Source of the DNA: Acidihalobacter prosperus
GTDB lineage: Bacteria > Pseudomonadota > Gammaproteobacteria > DSM-5130 > Acidihalobacteraceae
Assembly: GCF_000754095.2 (NCBI RefSeq)
Contig: NZ_JQSG02000003.1
Span: 299,397 to 363,396, forward strand
Reading direction: 5' to 3'
DNA: 64,000 nucleotides
Positions 14,922-54,259 of this stretch are shown piece by piece. Each line of letters begins with the position of its first letter. Positions within the stretch are counted from its first letter, which is position 1. The notes beneath the pieces are model-generated. The model ran no database searches, was not told the DNA's origin, and was given only the letters and a program-made list of their open reading frames with translations. The translations under genes were made by a program, and so were the position numbers.

Positions 14922-15383
<462 letters not shown>

Positions 15384-15425
15384 TTAAAATAAAAAAAACC
15401 TTGTCGAGCCGAGTCGTCACCTCTT

Positions 15426-15446
15426 GACGCACCATTATGGTGCGTC
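15426..15446. promoter_or_regulatory. NtrC-type enhancer site of glnK-amtB
   Basis: A perfect 21-bp palindrome with 10-bp arms has the core GCACCA-TTA-TGGTGC, the NtrC half-site pair with consensus spacing. It is centred 83 bp upstream of the -24 box. It is the best enhancer in the window and serves as reference for the weaker ones. Confidence 0.85.
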
Positions 15447-15509
15447 TTTGCTACGTCGTTAGCCGTATGGCCACCCGCTTGTCCAGGCACAAGCACAATG
15501 GACCCGCAT

Positions 15510-15539
15510 AAAAAAATTCCGGGCGCCAAGCGCCCGGAA
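15510..15539 (-). terminator. Rho-independent terminator after the 15573-16706 porin
   Basis: A 10-bp stem (TTCCGGGCGC with its complement) and a CAA loop are followed on the minus strand by TTTTTTT. It lies 33 bp after the porin stop and isolates the porin from the glnK control region. Confidence 0.92.
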
Positions 15540-15572
15540 GCTCGTCGCGGACAAAGTGGGTTACGCGGGCAA

Positions 15573-16706
15573 TCAGAAGGTGTAGGTACCGCCAATCGCG
15601 AACTGGCTGGCCGCCTTCGTGCCCGGGGACGTGACCGGGTTCGCGGCCGCATCCAGCACGTCGCTGTCGAGCCCGCTTTCCACCGCCTTCTTGTCCGCGT
15701 ATTGATACTCGGCATAGAAGGCCACGTCGCTGATCGGGGCATAGGCCAGGCTGAGCGTGGTGATCGTGCCTCTCGCCCGCGGCAGCGCGCCGTTGCTCGC
15801 CTGCGTGGTCGTGGAAATGTTGCCCATTACCGTCCACTTCGGTGTGAACCCGTAGCTTGCGGTCGCCAGATAGGTATAGATCTCATGCGTATTCTGGGCC
15901 GCGGTCATCAGCATCGACGTCGGCTTGTAGCCGAAGCCGCCCAAGCTGACGCTCAACGCCCCTGCGCTGTAGGTGCCACGCAAACCGACCTTGTTTTTGA
16001 GCAGCACGCCGGCGTATTCATTGATGGGTGTCAGCCAGACCGACTGCGAAGGCGAGGCACTATAGGCCGTGGCGCCATTACCGTACTTCGAGAAGGACTC
16101 GAAACCGGCGCCCAGCGTGTAGTCGCCAAACGTATAGGTACCGGAAAACGAATAATTGTTGGTCGACTTGCTGGCACTCGTGGCGCCCTTGCCGATGTTG
16201 AAGCCTTCGACGGACAGCGTCAGGCCACCCATCATGGGCGAGACATAGGACACTGCCTTATCCTGCTCGAAGGCGTTCACCGTGGTGGGATACATCCACC
16301 AGAACGGGGTGAAGGGCAGCACCACATCGTTGAAGTAAGTGGATTCGAGCCGGCCGGCCTTCAGCGTGCCCCAGGGGCCGGTGGCGCCCAGATACGCCCA
16401 GTAGGTCGAAGGCGTGCCGATCGCCGTGGTCGGATCGACGAACAGATCGTAGTTGTAGATGAACTTGGTACCCCCGGCCTCGCCCAGGTCGCCCTTCACG
16501 CCGACCTGACTGATATTGTTCTGAATGCCGTAGGTGGCCTTCTCACCATTGACCGTTGCCGTGTTGTACGTGCCGACAACACCCACCATCCCGTAAATCG
16601 TCGCACTCGGCGTCGCGTTCGCACGGGTAGCCACCCCCACCATGGCCGCTCCCATTCCCAGGGCAATCATCAACGTCGTTGGCTGAAACCGTTTCTTCAG
16701 GCGCAT
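15573..16706 (-). CDS. Outer-membrane porin, nitrogen-regulated (paralogue 1)
   Basis: The 377-residue precursor has a signal peptide ending ATRANA, then alternating amphipathic strands and a C-terminal phenylalanine (GGTYTF) needed for outer-membrane insertion. Shared motifs with the porin at 34697-35803 (PFWWMY/PFWWFY, FSKYGNG, TPINEYAG, YKPTSM) mark them as paralogues. The ATG at 16706 follows GGAG by eight bases; a GTG three codons upstream is less likely. It has its own sigma-54 promoter and NtrC site, so it likely admits nitrogenous solutes when nitrogen is scarce. Substrate unknown. Confidence 0.88.
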   Translation of the reverse strand: MRLKKRFQPTTLMIALGMGAAMVGVATRANATPSATIYGMVGVVGTYNTATVNGEKATYGIQNNISQVGVKGDLGEAGGTKFIYNYDLFVDPTTAIGTPSTYWAYLGATGPWGTLKAGRLESTYFNDVVLPFTPFWWMYPTTVNAFEQDKAVSYVSPMMGGLTLSVEGFNIGKGATSASKSTNNYSFSGTYTFGDYTLGAGFESFSKYGNGATAYSASPSQSVWLTPINEYAGVLLKNKVGLRGTYSAGALSVSLGGFGYKPTSMLMTAAQNTHEIYTYLATASYGFTPKWTVMGNISTTTQASNGALPRARGTITTLSLAYAPISDVAFYAEYQYADKKAVESGLDSDVLDAAANPVTSPGTKAASQFAIGGTYTF

Positions 16707-16787
16707 ACTTTTCACTCCAGATGGCTGACAGGGATGTTGCGAAAAAGAAACATTGTGAGCTGTCTCTTACATACGCCCCAGCGCATC

Positions 16788-16803
16788 TGCAGTTAGCGTG
16801 CCA
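16788..16803 (-). promoter_or_regulatory. Sigma-54 promoter of porin paralogue 1
   Basis: On the minus strand TGGCACGCTAACTGCA matches TGGCACG-N4-TTGCA with one change (C for T). It lies 82 bp before the porin ATG. The rest of the 376-bp gap to the next gene is AT-rich around 16895-16990 and contains the enhancer site. Confidence 0.82.
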
Positions 16804-16907
16804 GCACGACCATGCCGGTGACAGCTACGTGACAGGAGGGCTTCCGCCAGCCCCACCGATTCCCCGTCACCCAGTTCGCACCACCAGAGATCATGAATTA
16901 ATCACTA

Positions 16908-16922
16908 GCACCATTTTGGTGC
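16908..16922. promoter_or_regulatory. NtrC-type enhancer site of porin paralogue 1
   Basis: GCACCATTTTGGTGC is a perfect 6-bp inverted repeat with a 3-bp centre, identical in its half-sites to the glnK enhancer. It lies about 105 bp upstream of the -24 element, in AT-rich DNA. Confidence 0.8.
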
Positions 16923-17082
16923 GAGTATTGATTATTTTTACCTATTAATTATCTCTAATCACATTATGTGATTGATTAATTCAATAACCCCAGTCGAGTC
17001 ACCTCGTCGATCGCAGCTGCGCCACCCTATCCATGTATGCGATCCCCACACATCATAGGTGTTGCTTATCAGCAACACTCGC

Positions 17083-18045
17083 TCAATGATTCCACCTTGT
17101 ATCCGCCGGGTAAGGGCTCCGCATCATGTCGCGGTACCGATCCAGGTCCAGCGGCACGTCTCCCGCCTTGATCATCTCGAACATGCGCAGCACGATTTCA
17201 TAGGCGAGTTGCTGGGCATAGAGCGAACTCCGATGAAAGTACGTGTCGAACTTCGTCGGCACCTGCAATGCGTTGTCGGACATGACGTTCAATTCGACGA
17301 AAGGCACCTTGTTGATAAGCGAGGCCAGCGCGGTGCCGTAACCGCCTGACTCGTCCGCCTCATGAAAGATTCGGTCACTCTCCCGGATCGCCTTGGGATT
17401 GCGCAACCACATGGCTGAAGACCCTTGAGTACCATAATCCATGATGTAGGCCATGCTTGGCTTGTCGTTCTGATTCATCCAAGCCGGTGTCTCGGGCTTC
17501 ATGGACATCGCGGCGCGATAGGCTAGGTCAGACAGCGGCACACTGGGATACAGATACATCATCGCACCGCTGCCGGCGGCGTTCGATTCGGTGTCGTGGA
17601 ATTCACCGGGGATAATCCTGCCTGAACGCGTGGTGATGTAATTGCCGAAATCGACGACCCTCCGGGCGATCAGCACGTCGCCGATGCGCAACCGCTTGAG
17701 GTGCGAGCCGGAGGTTCCCGCATAAATCATTGCGCGCAAGGAAAAGGCATCCATCATTTTCTGCGCCACCAGCGCGCGCGTCGCATCCCCATCCACCGGC
17801 TGCACGCAGGCGACCACCGGAATACCGCTGAGTGTGCCCGTATGAAACGTGAAGCCACCGATCACCTGTGTCCGCGCATCTTCCAGATGAGACAGCAGCA
17901 CCGAATAATTCTTTGGCGCCAGCGGCATCAGGATGCCGTAGTACGTCACCTTGGACGCGGCACTCGCGCTGCCGAAAAGGATCATCAGCAGCGAACCTGT
18001 CGCCAGGCATCGCAGTCCGTCACGAAGCCATGAATTTGCTCGCAT
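17083..18045 (-). CDS. Secreted nucleoside phosphorylase/nucleosidase-family protein
   Basis: The 320-residue protein has a signal peptide (MRANSWLRDGLRCLATGSLL to about residue 30) and a PNP/UDP-phosphorylase-type domain. Matching segments are GTLSGIPVVACVQPVDGDA, MIYAGTSGSHLKRLRIGDVL, and FVELNVMSDNAL, the last corresponding to the ribose/base-binding loop with its aspartate. Enzymes of this family are normally cytoplasmic; this one appears periplasmic. GGAGG precedes the ATG. It lies downstream of the TonB receptor gene, separated by a large hairpin, suggesting capture and cleavage of nucleosides. Exact activity is not determined. Confidence 0.75.
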   Translation of the reverse strand: MRANSWLRDGLRCLATGSLLMILFGSASAASKVTYYGILMPLAPKNYSVLLSHLEDARTQVIGGFTFHTGTLSGIPVVACVQPVDGDATRALVAQKMMDAFSLRAMIYAGTSGSHLKRLRIGDVLIARRVVDFGNYITTRSGRIIPGEFHDTESNAAGSGAMMYLYPSVPLSDLAYRAAMSMKPETPAWMNQNDKPSMAYIMDYGTQGSSAMWLRNPKAIRESDRIFHEADESGGYGTALASLINKVPFVELNVMSDNALQVPTKFDTYFHRSSLYAQQLAYEIVLRMFEMIKAGDVPLDLDRYRDMMRSPYPADTRWNH

Positions 18046-18226
18046 TACATGCCCTCCTTGAAATACAAGTACTCGCGGCCGCCGACTGAACAGCCAGGAC
18101 ACCTGCCTTACCGGCACCGAACCACCGGCCGACTGGAGCGCCACATTGATCGGTATCTCGTGCCAATGACGTGCTCGAAAACTGGTGAAGCCATGGCTCG
18201 CTTCGCTTTAAATTGCATCGCGCTCG

Positions 18227-18262
18227 CCCCTGTGGCGCATGCTCGCGCATGCGCCACAGGGG
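18227..18262. repeat. Perfect 16-bp inverted repeat (strong hairpin)
   Basis: Two perfect 16-bp arms (CCCCTGTGGCGCATGC and complement) enclose TCGC. It lies 35 bp after the TonB-receptor stop and 182 bp before the nucleosidase-like start. There is no U-tract on either strand, so it may be an mRNA-stabilising hairpin, a weak terminator, or a member of a dispersed palindromic repeat. Confidence 0.8.
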
Positions 18263-18296
18263 TATGAGCAGCGCTGCGCGCGCGTGGAATCACGCC

Positions 18297-20630
18297 TCAG
18301 AACGAGGCCGTCAGCGTAACGCCCGCAAAGCGCGGCGGGCCGACCTGCACCAGCTCGTAGTTGCTGGAACCACCAGCCGTACCTTGGATGTAGGCGTAGG
18401 AGTAGTACTTCTTGTCCAGGAGGTTTTCGATGTAAGCGGCCACCTTGATCTTCTTCACCACGCCACTGCGCAGCTTCCAGGTGTAGGTGCCCTTGAGGTC
18501 CACCGTCTCATAGGCAGGCAGCTGCGTGGTACTGGTCGCACCGGTGTTGTACGCAATGTACTGAGCACCGACGAAATGCCCGCTGATTTCGCCGAACCAG
18601 GCGCCTTCGGCGTAATCCAGGCCCAGGTTGGCGGTGTACGTCGGCACATCCGGACGCGGCATGCCCGCACTTACCGTGCCGTTCGCACCGGTAAAGTTAT
18701 TGGTGTACTTGGCATCTGTATAGCCATAGTTACCCATCAGCGTAAGGTGGTGGAACAAAGGCTTCTCTGCAGCGATGGTGAAACCCTTGTAGTCGGCACG
18801 TCCGGCGTTGTACTCCGTGGTGATGCCGGTGGTGTTGTCGTAGTACTCGCTGAAGATATCCTCGAACTTGCGGTCGAACACCGAGAGCGAGGCCTTGCCG
18901 TAGGCGCCGCTGTAGCGAACGCCGGCGTCGATGCTGTTTACGTACTCGGGCTTGACCACCACCGGATACGGAACCGGGGTATAGCCGATGACGCTGTAGA
19001 ACGCGCTCTCGTCCGGAGCCTTGTAGGTGCGGCCGTAGTTGGCGTAAAGCTCCACCGTCTTGACCGGGCTGACCGTAACCCCCAGCGAGGGTTCGACGAA
19101 TCCGTAGGTTTTGCTCGCCGAGCCGCTATAGGCGTAGTAGTACCCCTGGATGTCGGTCACGCTCGGCTGGGTGTGGACATACTTCACGCCGGGGTAGATG
19201 TGCACCTTGCCCTTGAGCAGCGAGATGTTGTCCTGAATATAGCCTTCGGCGTAATCGAGGCCGTCGTGCTCCAGCCAGGCATTGTTGTAGCCGCCGATGA
19301 TCGGTACCGGATCGGCACCGTACCACGCCGTGGTCGTCAGGTTCTTCGCGGAGAACATCATGCCGCCGATGGTGACCGTGTTCGAAGGCAGCAGGAAGGT
19401 CAGATGACCCTTGCCGCCGACGTTGTAGTAATGGTCGACGTAACGCTGGTACTGCGTGCCCGCGGCCGGCGAACCAAACAATGCCGTCGCCTCGGCAGCA
19501 TTGTAGGTATTGAAGTTGGAACCGTACCCGCTGAGCGCAAAGGCGCTCTGCGTGTGCATCGGTAGGGCATAACCCATATAGCTGTTGTTGATGTTTGGGT
19601 CGACGTGCTCGGTGCGGTCGTTGCTGCTGTCGTTGTAGAAGAATTTGAAGCCGCCGGCCATGTACGGATTCAGATACGATTCCAGCGAGATGATCATGTG
19701 CGTGGCATGGGTCTGGTTACGATTCCAAAACGCGTCGCGAGGGTATTGGAAATCGCGCCCGTAGGCCTCCACGAGCGCGATCGGCACGGTCACTGGCGTC
19801 TGCGCCTTCTCGTCGTTATGAGTCAGAATGAACGCCAGCTTGGAAAGCCCCTGATTGAACGGCTGGGTCACGTTGAGGTAGTAGGCATTCAGCTTGGCGA
19901 AAACGTTCTTCTGGAAGCTGTCGGTCTTGGTATGGGTGTAGCTGGCGATCGCCTTTAGACCATCGAGTGCCGCGATCGCGCCGGTATCGCCGGTGACGCC
20001 ATAGCTGCTCGAGTAGCCGGTGGTCGCGTAATTACCCGTACCGACCATCAGATCGACACCGGCCTTGTCGGATGGCTGCTTGGGCACGAAATTGACCGTC
20101 CCCCCTAGGGAATCCAGCGAATTTTCGCGTGGCGTGTTGGCGCCACTGTAGACCTCCACGCTGCCGATCTGGCCCATGGTCAAAGGCGTCAGCGCATGAT
20201 CGGACCCCGCACCGTATACGCCTCCGCGCACGGTATTGATGATCGGCACGCCATCGAACGTGGTACCGATTTCGCTGCTACCGAAACCGTTCAAGGAAAA
20301 AGCAGAATTCGTCGAAACAAGATTTGCCGGCCCTGAACTCACCACGTTGAAACCTGGCACATTCCTGAGCAGCGTCAACATATTGGTGGTTGGACTGGTA
20401 TGCTCGACCTTGGTCTTGCTGACAGTGGCCACCGCCTTTTCTGGCGGCACGGTCTTGACCACCTTTTTAACCTGGACGGGGGTCGACATGTCTGGATCGG
20501 TGGGTCCGGCGTCGGCATGCGAAAGCATTGGCGTGAATAGACAGATACCTGCAGCCCCCGCGCCTAGCGCCCTCGCTATCGAGTGCCTCAAATCGAGTGT
20601 ATTGGTTTTATCGTTCATCCCACGCTTCAT
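18297..20630 (-). CDS. TonB-dependent outer-membrane receptor
   Basis: The 777-residue protein has a signal peptide ending MLSHADA, an N-terminal extension rich in Val/Lys, a plug domain (NMLTLLRNVPGFNVVSSGP; GGVYGAGSDHALTPLTMGQI; GANTPRENSLDSLGGTVNF) and a 22-strand-type barrel. The C-terminus, RFAGVTLTASF, ends in Phe as expected. IENLLDKKYYSYAYI is the usual penultimate strand motif. The ATG at 20630 (MKRGMNDK) follows GAGAGAG; 20618 is an alternative. Siderophore-specific features are not evident. The neighbouring nucleosidase-like gene and possible sigma-54 promoter suggest a nitrogen-containing substrate, which is inference. Confidence 0.9.
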   Translation of the reverse strand: MKRGMNDKTNTLDLRHSIARALGAGAAGICLFTPMLSHADAGPTDPDMSTPVQVKKVVKTVPPEKAVATVSKTKVEHTSPTTNMLTLLRNVPGFNVVSSGPANLVSTNSAFSLNGFGSSEIGTTFDGVPIINTVRGGVYGAGSDHALTPLTMGQIGSVEVYSGANTPRENSLDSLGGTVNFVPKQPSDKAGVDLMVGTGNYATTGYSSSYGVTGDTGAIAALDGLKAIASYTHTKTDSFQKNVFAKLNAYYLNVTQPFNQGLSKLAFILTHNDEKAQTPVTVPIALVEAYGRDFQYPRDAFWNRNQTHATHMIISLESYLNPYMAGGFKFFYNDSSNDRTEHVDPNINNSYMGYALPMHTQSAFALSGYGSNFNTYNAAEATALFGSPAAGTQYQRYVDHYYNVGGKGHLTFLLPSNTVTIGGMMFSAKNLTTTAWYGADPVPIIGGYNNAWLEHDGLDYAEGYIQDNISLLKGKVHIYPGVKYVHTQPSVTDIQGYYYAYSGSASKTYGFVEPSLGVTVSPVKTVELYANYGRTYKAPDESAFYSVIGYTPVPYPVVVKPEYVNSIDAGVRYSGAYGKASLSVFDRKFEDIFSEYYDNTTGITTEYNAGRADYKGFTIAAEKPLFHHLTLMGNYGYTDAKYTNNFTGANGTVSAGMPRPDVPTYTANLGLDYAEGAWFGEISGHFVGAQYIAYNTGATSTTQLPAYETVDLKGTYTWKLRSGVVKKIKVAAYIENLLDKKYYSYAYIQGTAGGSSNYELVQVGPPRFAGVTLTASF

Positions 20631-20751
20631 CTCTCTCACCCCATGGTTTCGACGGAAATCCGTTACCCGGCGTGCGTGCGTAGCCAATCCATCGATGCCA
20701 GGACACGCCAAGCGTCGATGCCGCATCGCCTCAATTTTTTGCATCCATCTT

Positions 20752-20767
20752 TGCATGCATCATGCCA
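20752..20767 (-). promoter_or_regulatory. Possible sigma-54 promoter of the TonB receptor
   Basis: On the minus strand TGGCATGATGCATGCA keeps the invariant GG and GC at the right spacing with two departures from consensus. It lies 122 bp before the receptor start. I find no NtrC palindrome in the 335-bp gap 20631-20966, which otherwise holds only a 12-bp perfect palindrome (AATTGCGCAATT, 20805-20816). Confidence 0.45.
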
Positions 20768-20966
20768 TTCATTAGGCATATCGATTACTGTTTAAATATC
20801 AATGAATTGCGCAATTAAACGTCTCTATAAAAAAACCGGCATCCAATCCTTCGCGCATTAAATGTGCGCACTCCAGCACCAAAACCGATCATGGAGAGCG
20901 ATTCGCCATGGCCCGCGGATGCGGCTAAACTTGGCGGGAGCCGAATGACGCAAGAGGTCCACCGCC

Positions 20967-21263
20967 ATGTTCGAAAAACCAGCCTTCGATGACTTCGCCT
21001 CGAAACTGGGCAAGGCCATACCCGAATCCGTGCGCGCCGCGCAGGAGGATGTCGGCAAGACCGTACGCGCCGGCATGCAGGGCGCCATGCAACGGCTCGA
21101 TCTGGTTAGCCGGGAGGAATTTGAGGTGCAGACTGCGGTCCTCGCCCGGACCCGCGAGAAACTGGAGCAAATGGAAATGCGGGTGCGCATGCTGGAGGAA
21201 CAGCTAGGCATCGCCAAATCGACATCGTCGGCTGACGCATCGCCGAACGAATCCGGGAACTAG
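20967..21263 (+). CDS. ubiK: Ubiquinone biosynthesis accessory factor UbiK
   Basis: This 98-residue protein matches the BMFP/YqiC family: an amphipathic N-terminal part (DDFASKLGKAIPESVRAAQED) and a C-terminal coiled coil (REEFEVQTAVLARTREKLEQM...VRMLEEQL). UbiK forms a trimer that assists aerobic ubiquinone assembly with UbiJ. It precedes comM by 37 bp, a common gammaproteobacterial order. Confidence 0.92.
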   Translation: MFEKPAFDDFASKLGKAIPESVRAAQEDVGKTVRAGMQGAMQRLDLVSREEFEVQTAVLARTREKLEQMEMRVRMLEEQLGIAKSTSSADASPNESGN

Positions 21264-49350: not shown

Positions 49351-49380
49351 CGCCCGGCCGCCCACACACCGGAGACAGAC

Positions 49381-49866
49381 ATGATCGAAATCGTCGAAGC
49401 CGACTTCGCCTCGCCCGAACAGGCCGAGACCCTCGTCACCCTGCTCGCGCGCTACGCCGAAGACCCCATGGGCGGCGGCGAACCGCTGCCCGAACGCACC
49501 CGCGCCGAACTGGTCCCGACCCTGCGCGAACGCCCCGGCAGCCACGCGCTCATCGCGTACGTCGACGGCCAGCCCGCCGGCCTGCTGATCGCCTTCGAGG
49601 GCTTCTCCACCTTCCAGTGCCGCCCGCTGCTCAACATCCACGACGTCATGGTCGACGCGCCCTACCGAGGCCGCGGACTCTCCACCCGCCTGCTCGCCGG
49701 CGCCGAAACCATCGCCCGCCGGCTCGGCTGCTGCAAGCTCACGCTGGAAGTGCTGGAAGGCAACGAACCTGCCAAGGCCAGCTACCGCAAATTCGGCTTC
49801 GCCGGCTATCAGCTCGATCCGAGCATGGGACGCGCGCAGTTCTGGGAAAAGAAGTTGCCGTGTTGA
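49381..49866 (+). CDS. GNAT-family N-acetyltransferase
   Basis: A 161-residue acetyltransferase with the acetyl-CoA loop APYRGRGLSTRLLAGAETIA and the C-terminal KLTLEVLEGNEPAKASYRKFGFAGYQ. It begins 30 bp after the LivF-type gene with GGAG before the ATG, so it is likely the last gene of that operon. It may acetylate an amine taken up by the transporter; the substrate is unknown. Confidence 0.88.
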   Translation: MIEIVEADFASPEQAETLVTLLARYAEDPMGGGEPLPERTRAELVPTLRERPGSHALIAYVDGQPAGLLIAFEGFSTFQCRPLLNIHDVMVDAPYRGRGLSTRLLAGAETIARRLGCCKLTLEVLEGNEPAKASYRKFGFAGYQLDPSMGRAQFWEKKLPC

Positions 49867-49993
49867 ACGCGCAGTCGGTCACCACCTACGCGCCCCGCAT
49901 CGGCCTTACATGAACGCGCCGGCTTACCCTCAGAGCGGATCTGACGGCACAAGACCTCCAGACATGGAAAAAGGTGACGCGGCAGCCTGACGT

Positions 49994-51097
49994 TCAAAGC
50001 TGAGGGTCGTACCAGAATTGCACCTTGAACCACCCTCCGAGCAGCGTCACGTCACCCTCATCGAACATCGGCAATCGCGCGACGTCATCGGCGCGGACCG
50101 CAAAAACACGATAGGCGTCATCACCCACATTGATAAAGGTGAGCCTAACGCCCTGTTTCTCCAGATGCCGCCCGGCGACCGTGATTTTTTCCCGAATGTA
50201 GCCGCCGCGCTCGATTTTGCTGAAATCGAGACCGCTCTCCCATTCTTTCAAAAACCCTGGGTCCAGCGCCATCTTACCCATACCAATCATGCGATCGGAA
50301 ACCCAGTCTTCGAATTCACCAGGCTCATCCTCACCAGCCCAATCCAACAATAGACAACAACCTGTTTTTTCCGAAAAACACAGCAATAGTTCAAGGTCGG
50401 AAGACAAGGCGCTGACATCATGAACCATCTCGTCCCGGCCCATGCCGCAGGACACCCCTGTTTCCGATTTCGCGAACGCTGCAGGATTCTCTCTCATGTC
50501 GGCTCGATAACAAGAAAATTCCGCATACTTATTTTCCAGGAGAATCTCTGCGAGCCTTAAAAATTTTTCCTCCGTTACCGGATATGAGGTGCCTGTCGCC
50601 ACCTCACCCGCTGCAGATGCGTGAGCATCTTCCGTTTCTGGCGCAAGCCGGACAGCCTGCATGACGTTTAACAGCATCTTCCTGAGATTGCGCCTCAATG
50701 ACCACCAAAGCCACAGTTTCTTGACCCTGAAAAACAAGAAGACCGCCACCACCACCATGATCACGAAATTGATTGACGACTGCACAGCCATCAACTGCAT
50801 GAACGACATCAGCATCAATGTGGACAGAATCGCTGTATTCAACAGAATACGACCACCATTCAAGCCATAAAAAAACCGCGACAGGTCACTCAATCTACCC
50901 AGGGAGAATTCTTTCTCTCCAGCCCAGTCATAGAGCGAAACCGGTCTTGAATATATTTGGCCGCCACGGCTTAACGACATATAAACGACCGTCACATCAG
51001 CATTGTCGTTCACAGGGATTGGTTCGCCGATATATTCCAGAGGCACATATTCACCCACCCCCGTCACAAGCGTATATTGACGTTTTTTGCCTTTCAT
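49994..51097 (-). CDS. Hypothetical membrane protein, 367 aa
   Basis: No family recognised. The ATG at 51097 is chosen because it overlaps the upstream stop by 4 bp; an in-frame ATG at 51118 is an alternative. Residues about 1-90 are soluble, two hydrophobic helices lie at about 95-140 (ILLNTAILSTLMLMSFMQLM; FVIMVVVAVFLFFRV), then a basic segment and a long acidic soluble domain (about 165-367). Base composition is visibly less GC-rich than the flanking operons, with many A/T-ending codons, which suggests acquisition from elsewhere. Confidence 0.7.
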   Translation of the reverse strand: MKGKKRQYTLVTGVGEYVPLEYIGEPIPVNDNADVTVVYMSLSRGGQIYSRPVSLYDWAGEKEFSLGRLSDLSRFFYGLNGGRILLNTAILSTLMLMSFMQLMAVQSSINFVIMVVVAVFLFFRVKKLWLWWSLRRNLRKMLLNVMQAVRLAPETEDAHASAAGEVATGTSYPVTEEKFLRLAEILLENKYAEFSCYRADMRENPAAFAKSETGVSCGMGRDEMVHDVSALSSDLELLLCFSEKTGCCLLLDWAGEDEPGEFEDWVSDRMIGMGKMALDPGFLKEWESGLDFSKIERGGYIREKITVAGRHLEKQGVRLTFINVGDDAYRVFAVRADDVARLPMFDEGDVTLLGGWFKVQFWYDPQL

Positions 51098-51411
51098 CGG
51101 CACGAAGATGCTTCGCATACGAGACAGAAAGCCCTCCCGCTTAACCCAGCCATACCGCGAATCATCGGATGTCCCGTGATTTTTTTAATCATGCCTCGAA
51201 TGCATTTTACTTCGAACGCAGGGGTTTTGATCGTGTATTGTTTCATTCGCGCATCCAGCAAGAAGTTGACTGAAATATTACGGCCACCTATCCGCCTATT
51301 TGCCACCATCCGATCCAGATAAAAACTTTCAGAAAATCCAAGCACCTTTTCTTTTTTCACCAGATGCCTAACCACGCCAGCCGCGATCATCTGACACCCA
51401 TCGTCAATCAT
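51094..51411 (-). CDS. Hypothetical small protein, 105 aa
   Basis: A short coding frame coupled to the next gene by a 4-bp overlap (ATGA), with the same lower-GC composition. The product is basic (VRHLVKKEKVLGFSESFYLD; VNFLLDARMKQYTIKTP) with four cysteines. No family is recognised, and the ribosome site before 51411 is poor; a start at the ATG six codons later is possible. The 238-bp gap to 51650 shows no further gene. Confidence 0.45.
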   Translation of the reverse strand: MIDDGCQMIAAGVVRHLVKKEKVLGFSESFYLDRMVANRRIGGRNISVNFLLDARMKQYTIKTPAFEVKCIRGMIKKITGHPMIRGMAGLSGRAFCLVCEASSCR

Positions 51412-51649
51412 CGCTGCGTGTCACGCTCCAGACTGACACCCAATATCGAGCGAACCACCAGCCACATGCCTATGAATTGCCGATTGGTCCGCGCGGAAGC
51501 TTAGCATCGGCGCATGACACCAGCATTCTTTATTTACCTGCTCATGAGACAGCGGGCATACGCCAAACAATGCTGTAGCGGTCCGACACGACCTCGTATA
51601 TGCTCCGCTAGCATCGTCCAGATAGCGCCACTTACCGGAGCGAACGCGG

Positions 51650-52720
51650 ATGACAACATGCCCTCGCAACCCTCTGTTTCTAGCGTTTTTCCTGGCCTCG
51701 TCCACCCTGGCCACAATACCTGCCGCAAAGGCGCAAAGCGAATTATCTGACCGATTCGAATGCATGATCGCGCAGATGTCGTTCATGCCGATCGTCGATG
51801 ATCTCGGGACCGCCGCAAAAACCGATAACACCACAACAGTCGGCCAAAAGGTGTATGGCAACGCAGCCAGTCCATCCGCCTACTGGATCGCGCAGAGTTC
51901 CAGCGCCGTCGCTACCCTTGTAAGCGAGACCTCAGATCCAGTACTAAAACGCGAGCTCCAGCAGCTCGGAGACGTAATAGACAAACAGAAAGGCCATGCC
52001 CGCTTCGTCAGCAGCCCCGTACTCGCCCATAATCTGACCCAGGTCTACAACTGGCTGCAGACCCATTGCCCAACGACGAACAAGACCAGCCCCACCGCGC
52101 AACCCTCTGCCATGAGTGGCGCCGACATGGGTCCAGGACTAACCTCGGTCACACCAGCTGTGCGACCGGGCCCCATAGCCAAGCCCATTCCTGTAACGCG
52201 CGAGGCATCCGACGCCCCTGGCATGCCCCTGTTTTCCGAGATCAATCCCGCCAATGCTGCCATTCTGCTCTCGGCAAAAGGTATCCAGCTGGTCAGCACG
52301 CCCACCCCGGCCGATATCCAGGTGATATTCGATCCGAACGGCCCATACGGCGCGCTACTTTTCAAGGAAATGCAGGCCGCATATCCGTTCCTGCCCGTGC
52401 GCTGGGTTCCCGTGGGCGTATTCGGCAACAACAGCATCGAGAAGACCGCAACGCTGCTGGCCTCAACCGACCCGATCTCCGCGCTCGAAACTGATCTACA
52501 GCAATTCAACAACCACGCAGCCAACGGCGGCGGACTCATCGTCAACCCACAGGCACCACCTCTGCCCGCGGAAACACAGCGTCTAGGCAAAGCCATGCTT
52601 GTATGGGGCGGATTCACACCGATGGTTGTCTTTCGCGATTCTCAAGGTCGCTGGCTGAGAACCGGTGGAGCGAGTCTCGTAGTTATCAAGAGCGTCCTGG
52701 CACGCGCCGCAAGCCAATAA
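51650..52720 (+). CDS. DsbG/DsbC-like thioredoxin-fold protein lacking the catalytic cysteines
   Basis: A 356-residue secreted protein. The signal peptide ends IPAAKA, an N-terminal domain (to about residue 185) has two cysteines (C38 and C140), and the C-terminal part matches the DsbC/DsbG catalytic domain: VIFDPNGPYGALLFKEMQ, VRWVPVGVFGNNSIEKTATL, STDPISALE and the cis-proline region GGFTPMVVFRDSQGRW. The active site that normally reads CPYC is GPYG (231-234), so disulfide exchange is impossible. It may be a chaperone. GGAG precedes the ATG. Confidence 0.8.
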   Translation: MTTCPRNPLFLAFFLASSTLATIPAAKAQSELSDRFECMIAQMSFMPIVDDLGTAAKTDNTTTVGQKVYGNAASPSAYWIAQSSSAVATLVSETSDPVLKRELQQLGDVIDKQKGHARFVSSPVLAHNLTQVYNWLQTHCPTTNKTSPTAQPSAMSGADMGPGLTSVTPAVRPGPIAKPIPVTREASDAPGMPLFSEINPANAAILLSAKGIQLVSTPTPADIQVIFDPNGPYGALLFKEMQAAYPFLPVRWVPVGVFGNNSIEKTATLLASTDPISALETDLQQFNNHAANGGGLIVNPQAPPLPAETQRLGKAMLVWGGFTPMVVFRDSQGRWLRTGGASLVVIKSVLARAASQ

Positions 52721-52736
52721 CTCAGAAATCGACACC

Positions 52737-53333
52737 ATGTCGCCATTTTACAAATCGCTTCCGCTACTTATCTGCGCGATCGCATCCTTGACGTCGCTTT
52801 CCGCCAAAGCCGACGGTAAACAATTCATCGCTCCCGGCTTGTGGCGCATCGCGTCTCATATCTACGGGCCGCTGGGCGCAGTGCATGTCCTGACGCAGGA
52901 TGAGTGTTGGGACAAAAATGGGCGTTCCTCCCAGGGCACCTACCTACTCATGCCTTCGCCATCGGCCTCCCAGGTCAACCTGACCTACAAGATATCCACC
53001 AGCGGACTGACATCCACCGTGCATACCCACGCGGAATTTCCTGGACCACATCTGCGTGGCGCACTGGACACCCTCATGATTTTCTCGGCGATAGGCGACG
53101 CCATGCACACTGCGACCATGAAGGGCACCGCCTCGGTAACCTACGAAGGTAAAAACGCCATTCTTGACGTGCATGCCACGCAAACTGGCTACTTGATTTC
53201 AAGCACATGCCCGCTCATGCTCCCGCCCAGCAAAATGGAAACCCTGAAACCCAGCCATTTGCCCGCACTTGACGCGCTGCAGAAACTCGCCAAACAGCTT
53301 CAGGCCGAAGACCCTCACCCAAATTCGCCCTGA
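52737..53333 (+). CDS. Secreted DUF3617-like protein
   Basis: A 198-residue protein with a signal peptide ending LSAKA. The mature start FIAPGLWRIASHIYG resembles the PGLW motif of DUF3617 proteins, followed by beta-rich repeats (VNLTYKISTSGLTSTVHTHA; ATMKGTASVTYEGK) and two cysteines (ECWDK, TCPLM). It follows the DsbG-like gene by 16 bp, so the two are probably co-expressed; a periplasmic partnership is inferred. Family assignment is tentative. Confidence 0.6.
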   Translation: MSPFYKSLPLLICAIASLTSLSAKADGKQFIAPGLWRIASHIYGPLGAVHVLTQDECWDKNGRSSQGTYLLMPSPSASQVNLTYKISTSGLTSTVHTHAEFPGPHLRGALDTLMIFSAIGDAMHTATMKGTASVTYEGKNAILDVHATQTGYLISSTCPLMLPPSKMETLKPSHLPALDALQKLAKQLQAEDPHPNSP

Positions 53334-54259
53334 TCTGCCATCTCGGCACGTCGTTGTGAGCACCATGAAATCGCCAAAGACGCCACCCATCGGCGCGGCT
53401 GCTGCCAAGCGCGCGCTGTCGAAGAAGCTACCGTATTGAGTGAGCGCCGGGCATCACGCCCGACACCTAAACCGTTTCTGCCTGGTTAACGACCGTCGGC
53501 ATGATTTCACACACCTTCAGTGACGGAGTCCTTTCATGGCTTCGGGGCAGGCGCGCGAGCAATTCCGTTCGGCGCATTCTGCGCCTTGGCCCACTGGGGT
53601 TCGTGCAATTGTCGCTGACGCCGATTTTTTCTTTTGACGAACAAAAGTCACCAAATAAATTTGCCCCGCACAGCCGCATCCCGAGAAGCAAGGCGACGAG
53701 GGGATAGAAAACCGTGGAGCGCGTGCAAACTCGTAGCGGAAAATCTTTTGATTTGAGTTCCCGTTACGCCTTGCCTCGCCCGTGCGCGCCGACGCGAGGT
53801 CGAGCGGCAGGACGTCGCCCGAGCTGGCTTCGCACGAACGGCGAGTGCCTGCCATGCCCTAGTCGACGTGTGCGGGCAAAGTTCCTCTGCAGGAACAAGG
53901 CGTTTCGGGCGCATTTCTTTGCCCGATTCCTTTGGGCTGGCAAAGACAAAATCGTTAGGGACGATTTTGCGCGTTCGCCCGGCGGGAGGCGAGACGCAGG
54001 GATGCGTCGAACAAACCGGGTCGGCGCATCGCCAGCGAGATCGAACACGAAAAGACCGATTCGCACTCGAAACCACGCGCTGAAGCCTGGCGTTTTTTGG
54101 GATATTTTTCTTTATTTGATAAATAAATTTATGCGCATGACCACGACAATAATAAAATGATGCCACGCAGGACCCGGCATCAAAATCATGCGCCGCCTAT
54201 CAACCGATTCATATTCATAGCCGACCCGGTACCCGCAATTCACCACGGTCATACCAGGC
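53334..54259. other. Gene-poor region of about 0.9 kb
   Basis: No convincing gene is present. Overlapping open frames on both strands (for example 53714-54160 plus, 53764-54066 minus) give Arg/Ala/Ser-rich products with no recognisable family. A 24-codon frame at 53365-53439 is basic and unsupported. A 9-bp inverted repeat (CAAAATCGT/ACGATTTTG, 53947-53969) is visible. AT-rich DNA from about 54100 to 54180 contrasts with the GC-rich middle. It could be a decayed gene or a dispersed repeat. Confidence 0.6.

Follow-up and report, generated by a model that had tools for sequence, protein, structure and literature searches.

We analysed a 64,000-nucleotide stretch of Acidihalobacter prosperus DNA (contig NZ_JQSG02000003.1), referred to below as the window, which contains on its forward strand a gene (51650-52720) for a protein with a C-terminal DsbG-type thioredoxin domain in which both catalytic cysteines are replaced by glycine. 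The reading frame starts with ATG and runs uninterrupted for 356 codons. The gene stands in a low-GC islet together with a divergent gene for a DUF6630-domain protein and a DUF3617-like gene that starts 16 bases after its stop codon (Table 1).

The active-site position and the fold of the domain

At the position of the CxxC active site the DNA reads GGC CCA TAC GGC and encodes GPYG within the context DPNGPYGALL, GGC being the glycine codon both of residue 231 (52340-52342) and of residue 234 (52349-52351). A scan of the sequence revealed no CxxC anywhere in the 356-residue protein, in agreement with a preliminary description of the locus, made from the DNA alone, that had reported glycine at both catalytic positions. 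The histidine that follows the second active-site cysteine in most relatives read is also lost in the window protein, and the cis-proline segment has the sequence TPMVVF. Outside the domain there are two cysteines in the N-terminal part, which that description had listed as well, C38 and C140 (codons at 51761 and 52067, respectively), and a further one, C4, lies within the apparent signal peptide. By the established chemistry of DsbC and DsbG, a site that has lost both cysteines has no means of thiol-disulfide exchange, which strongly implies that no such chemistry occurs at GPYG. Judged from its sequence, the window protein is very probably redox-dead.

When the sequence was searched on its own, the only family match was to NCBIfam DsbG (NF008657; E = 3.8e-5, residues 222-335), with a score of 23 bits against a curated cut-off of 124, which does not reach the threshold for membership; no match to the protein at E = 1 or better came from Pfam, PHROGs or PADLOC, nor from a search of the PDB with the single sequence. 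A profile built from the window protein and 62 relatives (63 sequences, alignment A2, for which 62 of 80 loci were retained after thinning by hand) matched solved DsbG at E = 2.3e-38 (2h0i), and P324 was invariant in the window protein and all 62 relatives. An AlphaFold model was built on the same alignment. Its residues 187-354 superposed on DsbG 1v57 with a Z score of 17.1 and a root-mean-square deviation of 2.6 over 151 aligned residues, and the predicted local distance difference test (pLDDT), averaged in blocks, was 84-92 over residues 221-340, except for residues 291-300 (61). Because the alignment behind it consists of CxxC proteins, the model tells how well the sequence fits the fold and not how the protein behaves. 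As to an N-terminal dimerisation domain like that of DsbC and DsbG, rows of solved DsbG aligned only from model residue 186 or so onward, and the part before it had no Pfam match and was mostly modelled with pLDDT below 60. Profile search and structure comparison thus substantiate the earlier observation that the active-site domain and the cis-proline segment resemble DsbC and DsbG: the C-terminal domain is a DsbG-type thioredoxin fold with a cis-proline.

Table 1 Features of the islet and of the gene with the GPYG-containing domain (positions in the window)
Feature	Position	Strand	Basis
Gene for a protein with a C-terminal DsbG-type domain, GPYG replacing CxxC (356 aa)	51650..52720	+	Sequence, family match, profile, model
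Apparent Sec signal peptide, residues 1-28	51650..51733	+	Judged by eye from sequence
N-terminal region (about residues 29-186), containing C38, C140 and a linker rich in Pro and Thr; convincing relative not found	51734..52207	+	Homologue searches, model
DsbG-type thioredoxin domain, about residues 187-356	52208..52717	+	Alignment, profile, model
GPYG, residues 231-234, at the CxxC position	52340..52351	+	DNA read and alignment
T323-P324, cis-proline position	52616..52621	+	DNA read and alignment
Gene for a probable distant relative of DUF3617 (198 aa; apparent signal peptide)	52737..53333	+	Sequence, profile-profile comparison
Divergent gene for a 374-aa protein with a C-terminal DUF6630 domain	49994..51118	-	Pfam DUF6630; islet GC3
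Islet with low GC3; sister species G002 lacks it at the corresponding site	49874..53421	.	Genome comparison and composition
Possibly what is left of an eroded GNAT 3' end, on the right side of the islet; short weak matches, perhaps due to chance upstream of 53422	53372..53446	+	Sequence matches

Relatives and divergence of the domain

All 45 homologous loci that we read from the protein-similarity searches carry CxxC (36 aligned loci, L058 and the eight loci L173-L180; further listed matches were not fetched). The preliminary description had reasoned that close homologues all carrying CxxC would indicate a recent inactivating change confined to this strain; the homologues read do all have CxxC, but they are distant ones, and no close homologue was found. 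Two of the 45 are paralogues in the organism's own genome (C6:769465, CPYC; C6:1069329, CPFC). In the two sister species of the genus, the only DsbG-like genes encode CxxC and show approximately 28-38% resemblance to the window protein. The domain of the gene in G003 is identical to that on a contig from a metagenome-assembled genome (MAG) of Acidihalobacter sp. A scan of 369 genomes of the class for the motif DPNGx[YF]G gave 17 places in 17 genomes, all of which were read, and the window protein was the only one in which the motif lies within a Dsb-like frame (the set is without sister genome G001, and the pattern does not cover other redox-dead forms such as SxxS or AxxA). Within what was tested, the GxxG form is unique to the window protein. 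Another scan, an alignment-driven one of genome contigs with the pattern DPNC[PI][YF]CH, demands the cysteines; its 80 loci are uninformative on the frequency of GxxG and served for the work on fold, conservation and tree only.

Full-length searches for an orthologue covered 144 relatives, 369 genomes of the class and 398 of the phylum (overlapping sets) and gave matches in 15, 43 and 19 genomes, respectively, the organism's own genome counted. The plasmid search returned two Halomonas records that matched in the domain only. Genome and viral contigs were searched with exact peptide patterns, which reach close relatives only, and the viral contigs also by alignment. No match in the genome, plasmid or contig searches spanned the N-terminal region plus the domain, and the N-terminal region itself had no match at E = 0.1 or better among 144 foreign loci. 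Two weak hits from the phylum set that touch it or the linker, in G414 (residues 138-201, with two internal stops, E = 4.8e-4) and in G588 (residues 71-204, E = 7.0e-4), were treated as putative composition matches. The best relative of the domain shares 31% identity over 150 columns; over shorter segments BLAST identities were 27-39%, reaching 44% over about 70 residues (L092). Among L066-L145, which come from Acidithiobacillus, Thiomonas and related MAGs, there are many DsbG-like open frames of approximately 190-240 residues, a length that leaves no room for a complete dimerisation domain.

In a tree of 115 domains, the end branch of the window protein was by far the longest (2.54 versus a median of 0.14), and in a second tree of a 68-row subset it measured 2.06 versus 0.17. 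The first tree was built with 114 of the 117 homologues, leaving out L058 and L123, which had no motif match, and one that was too short; an earlier alignment, A1, used 21 of 37. In the second tree the window protein stands beside L014 with weak support, at a point where long branches meet. Two DsbG-like proteins, from L174 (G688) and L178 (G597), have the active site CPHCA and so share with the window protein an alanine in place of the histidine next to the active site; they form a separate pair in this tree, and the window protein does not group with them.

From the positions conserved in at least 75% of the 62 relatives, the window protein has kept 21 of 33, and 11 of 19 from those conserved in at least 90%. 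Those kept include D228-P229-N230, R251-W252, P254-V255, S262, K265, P324, G333 and G340; those lost are C231, C234, H235, G209, L258, A266, A268, A272, E283, N315 and two more. Here the 100% conservation of C231, C234 and H235 is biased by the cysteine-demanding pattern, and L174 and L178, which were found without it, have alanine at the histidine position. The earlier statement that the domain is otherwise well kept thus holds for its core but not for the domain overall. The earlier view that the protein is no product of simple decay is supported in one sense: its open frame and branch length speak against a known gene of which a copy was recently broken. Since the best identity is 31%, the branch is the longest in the tree and the N-terminal half has no detected relatives, we conclude that the gene is not a normal one with a recent lesion. 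The survival of an open frame and of the fold signature through so much change argues for function.

The islet and the downstream DUF3617-like gene

The protein encoded downstream had no Pfam match at E = 1 or better and did not reach the gathering score of DUF3617, and a search of the organism's genome with PF12276 returned another gene only. We compared its mature part, without the signal peptide, with a profile built from ten DUF3617 proteins. The score was 41.0 (89.8% probability), the maximum among 100 shuffles was 20.4, and four control sequences from the window (two other proteins and two fragments of the DsbG-like protein) scored 9.8-13.7. The likeness to DUF3617 consists of a PGLW motif, a cysteine about 20 residues further on and this profile-profile score, whereas the protein departs from DUF3617 in that its middle part is longer and its C-terminal tail is long. 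By these sequence features it is probably a distant DUF3617 relative, and the comparison upholds the DUF3617-like neighbour that the preliminary description had proposed. It had no convincing relative in the 369 class genomes or in plasmids. A match in G038 was rejected as due to chance: it lies antisense over a gene that looks CpoB-like by eye and has an internal stop. The term DUF3617 occurred in no paper of the literature searched.

The GC content falls from 0.67-0.71 to the left of the islet to 0.51-0.59 inside it, and the GC content at third codon positions (GC3) is 0.59-0.67 in the three islet genes versus 0.86-0.92 in seven flanking genes (on the left four of ABC-transporter type and a GNAT gene, on the right those for a substrate-binding protein and a porin-like protein). 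The DsbG-type and the DUF3617-like gene both have islet GC3 (0.65-0.67), and neither has an orthologue in the sister genomes G001 and G002. In G002, the GNAT gene (49381-49866 in the window) runs directly into the sequence that starts at 53422, which leaves approximately 3.5 kb extra in the window. The two genes probably arrived jointly on this small, horizontally acquired islet. The block 49355-49873 around the GNAT gene is 96.7% identical to G002, and the next shared blocks are 76-80% identical; this one gene has probably undergone recent recombination or transfer. The block, together with the short weak matches to a GNAT 3' end on the other side of the islet, suggests that GNAT gene and islet may have entered together by recombination. 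In G001 the same place after the GNAT gene (L044 2224-10960, on C1) is occupied by another insertion of low GC content, whose genes, judged by eye, include two that resemble transposase genes and one for a TIR-like protein, and so this junction looks variable within the genus.

In the two other islet genes, DUF6630 was the only match above cut-off; those to DUF2244 and TraD were weak and far below their cut-offs, the one of the DUF6630 protein to NCBIfam SXT_TraD scoring 15 bits against 366. The DUF6630 protein has two hydrophobic stretches, recognised by eye, and no plasmid match. Scans for promoters and terminators gave no more hits than shuffled sequences. A second stretch of lower GC content lies elsewhere in the window (15001-21000; 0.55-0.60 against mostly 0.60-0.71).

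A proposed redox-inactive binding module and its alternatives

The explanation that we favour, and hold tentatively at somewhat less than an even chance, is that of a redox-dead periplasmic binding module that serves its neighbour. The protein would be exported to the periplasm, and its C-terminal half is a DsbG-type thioredoxin domain stripped of the redox centre that has retained the fold and the cis-proline groove, which binds the substrate in active relatives. In its likeliest role this domain would be a redox-inactive module for binding proteins or peptides, a pseudo-isomerase, joined by the Pro/Thr-rich linker to a lineage-specific N-terminal region. The likeliest client or co-worker of the module would be the DUF3617-like protein encoded next to it; that the domain has a binding role with this protein as its partner is likewise plausible without being the probable outcome. 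Export, action as a chaperone or adaptor, co-transcription and the client are all inferred.

Several results weigh against this explanation. The N-terminal half is poorly modelled (residues 31-220 mostly with pLDDT below 60), and the protein has lost 12 of the 33 positions conserved in the domain, nine in addition to C231, C234 and H235. No search found an orthologue that would bear on purifying selection or on the conservation of the gene pair. When the DUF3617 profile was run on 162 loci, not all of them Dsb loci and many only about 3 kb long, nothing except the window's own gene scored below E = 0.05, and around the later Dsb loci nothing scored below E = 0.9; the pairing of Dsb and DUF3617 is thus known from one instance. 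Finally, in eukaryotic protein disulfide isomerase, a member of another protein family, the replacement of the active-site cysteines by serine abolishes all chaperone activity, according to a review (PMC13095759).

The main rival, in our estimate unlikely, is a non-functional or barely functional orphan, that is, a horizontally acquired reading frame that drifts in its host without selection. The contrast between the GNAT block and the blocks next to it suggests a recent event, which would fit such an origin, as would the longest end branch among the 115 rows and the lack of an orthologue. However, drift through approximately 2-2.5 changes per site would be expected to break both frame and fold, and the gene nevertheless has 356 open codons, an apparent signal peptide, a confidently predicted fold and its cis-proline. 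Structural similarity extends to DsbP from IncA/C plasmids and from related integrative and conjugative elements (4ml1, 4ml6 and 4mly; Z = 11.7-12.5), and one could think of an assembly factor akin to TraF, whose redox-dead thioredoxin fold once belonged to a conjugation or secretion machine and was carried into the islet. We regard this as improbable, since there was no Pfam TraF match, none of the three islet genes was recognised as a transfer gene (the search for such genes was confined to the islet) and, according to PMC11315126, a redox-inactive TraF without TrbB is not observed.

Two further possibilities concern cysteines, those of the protein itself and those of its paralogues. The exported part has two cysteines, and the protein could still be a thiol-disulfide protein whose redox chemistry has shifted to C38 and C140; these are, however, 102 residues apart and outside the thioredoxin fold, where a structural bridge or none would be more plausible, and we consider such a shift very improbable. 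Least probable of all is a decoy that competes with the cell's CxxC paralogues for clients: the own genome does encode two such paralogues, but without cysteines the covalent trapping of a reductant is impossible. A more far-reaching version of the binding-module explanation, in which the window protein, with an N-terminal domain of its own, is the first of a redox-dead family that derives from DsbG, is spread by small islets and serves in the periplasm as a chaperone or adaptor dedicated to a single co-inherited secreted protein of DUF3617 type, is unlikely; if true, it would provide the first functional partner for the uncharacterised DUF3617 fold. Should the protein be functional at all, it would offer a natural test of the share that redox-independent binding has in DsbG function, and it would link the DUF3617-like protein to a partner.

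The loss of CxxC is in itself unsurprising, since it is common in this fold class: in a survey, only 56.8% of the proteins had both cysteines (PMC2757866). Redox-dead thioredoxin folds are already known, for example TraF of F-like plasmids, whose thioredoxin-like domain lacks CXXC like that of the window protein; TraF is accompanied by the redox-active TrbB (PMC11315126), whereas the window protein has no match to that family and its islet no recognised conjugation genes. A limited, not exhaustive, literature search yielded no published account of a GPYG protein of DsbG type, and in what was searched the fusion of such a domain to an orphan N-terminal region appears as a single instance. The best-scoring relatives of the domain are short proteins resembling DsbG from acidophiles and from other Proteobacteria (CPYC, CPFC or CIYC; among L002-L025 and L053-L080s), but those read have CxxC, and the N-terminal region of the window protein is unmatched there. 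With DsbG itself (1v57, 2h0g-i, 5g1k-l), the window protein shares the C-terminal thioredoxin domain and the cis-proline (Z about 17), and it differs from DsbG in lacking CxxC and the histidine after it, in its unaligned N-terminal region and in a score far below the cut-off of the DsbG family.
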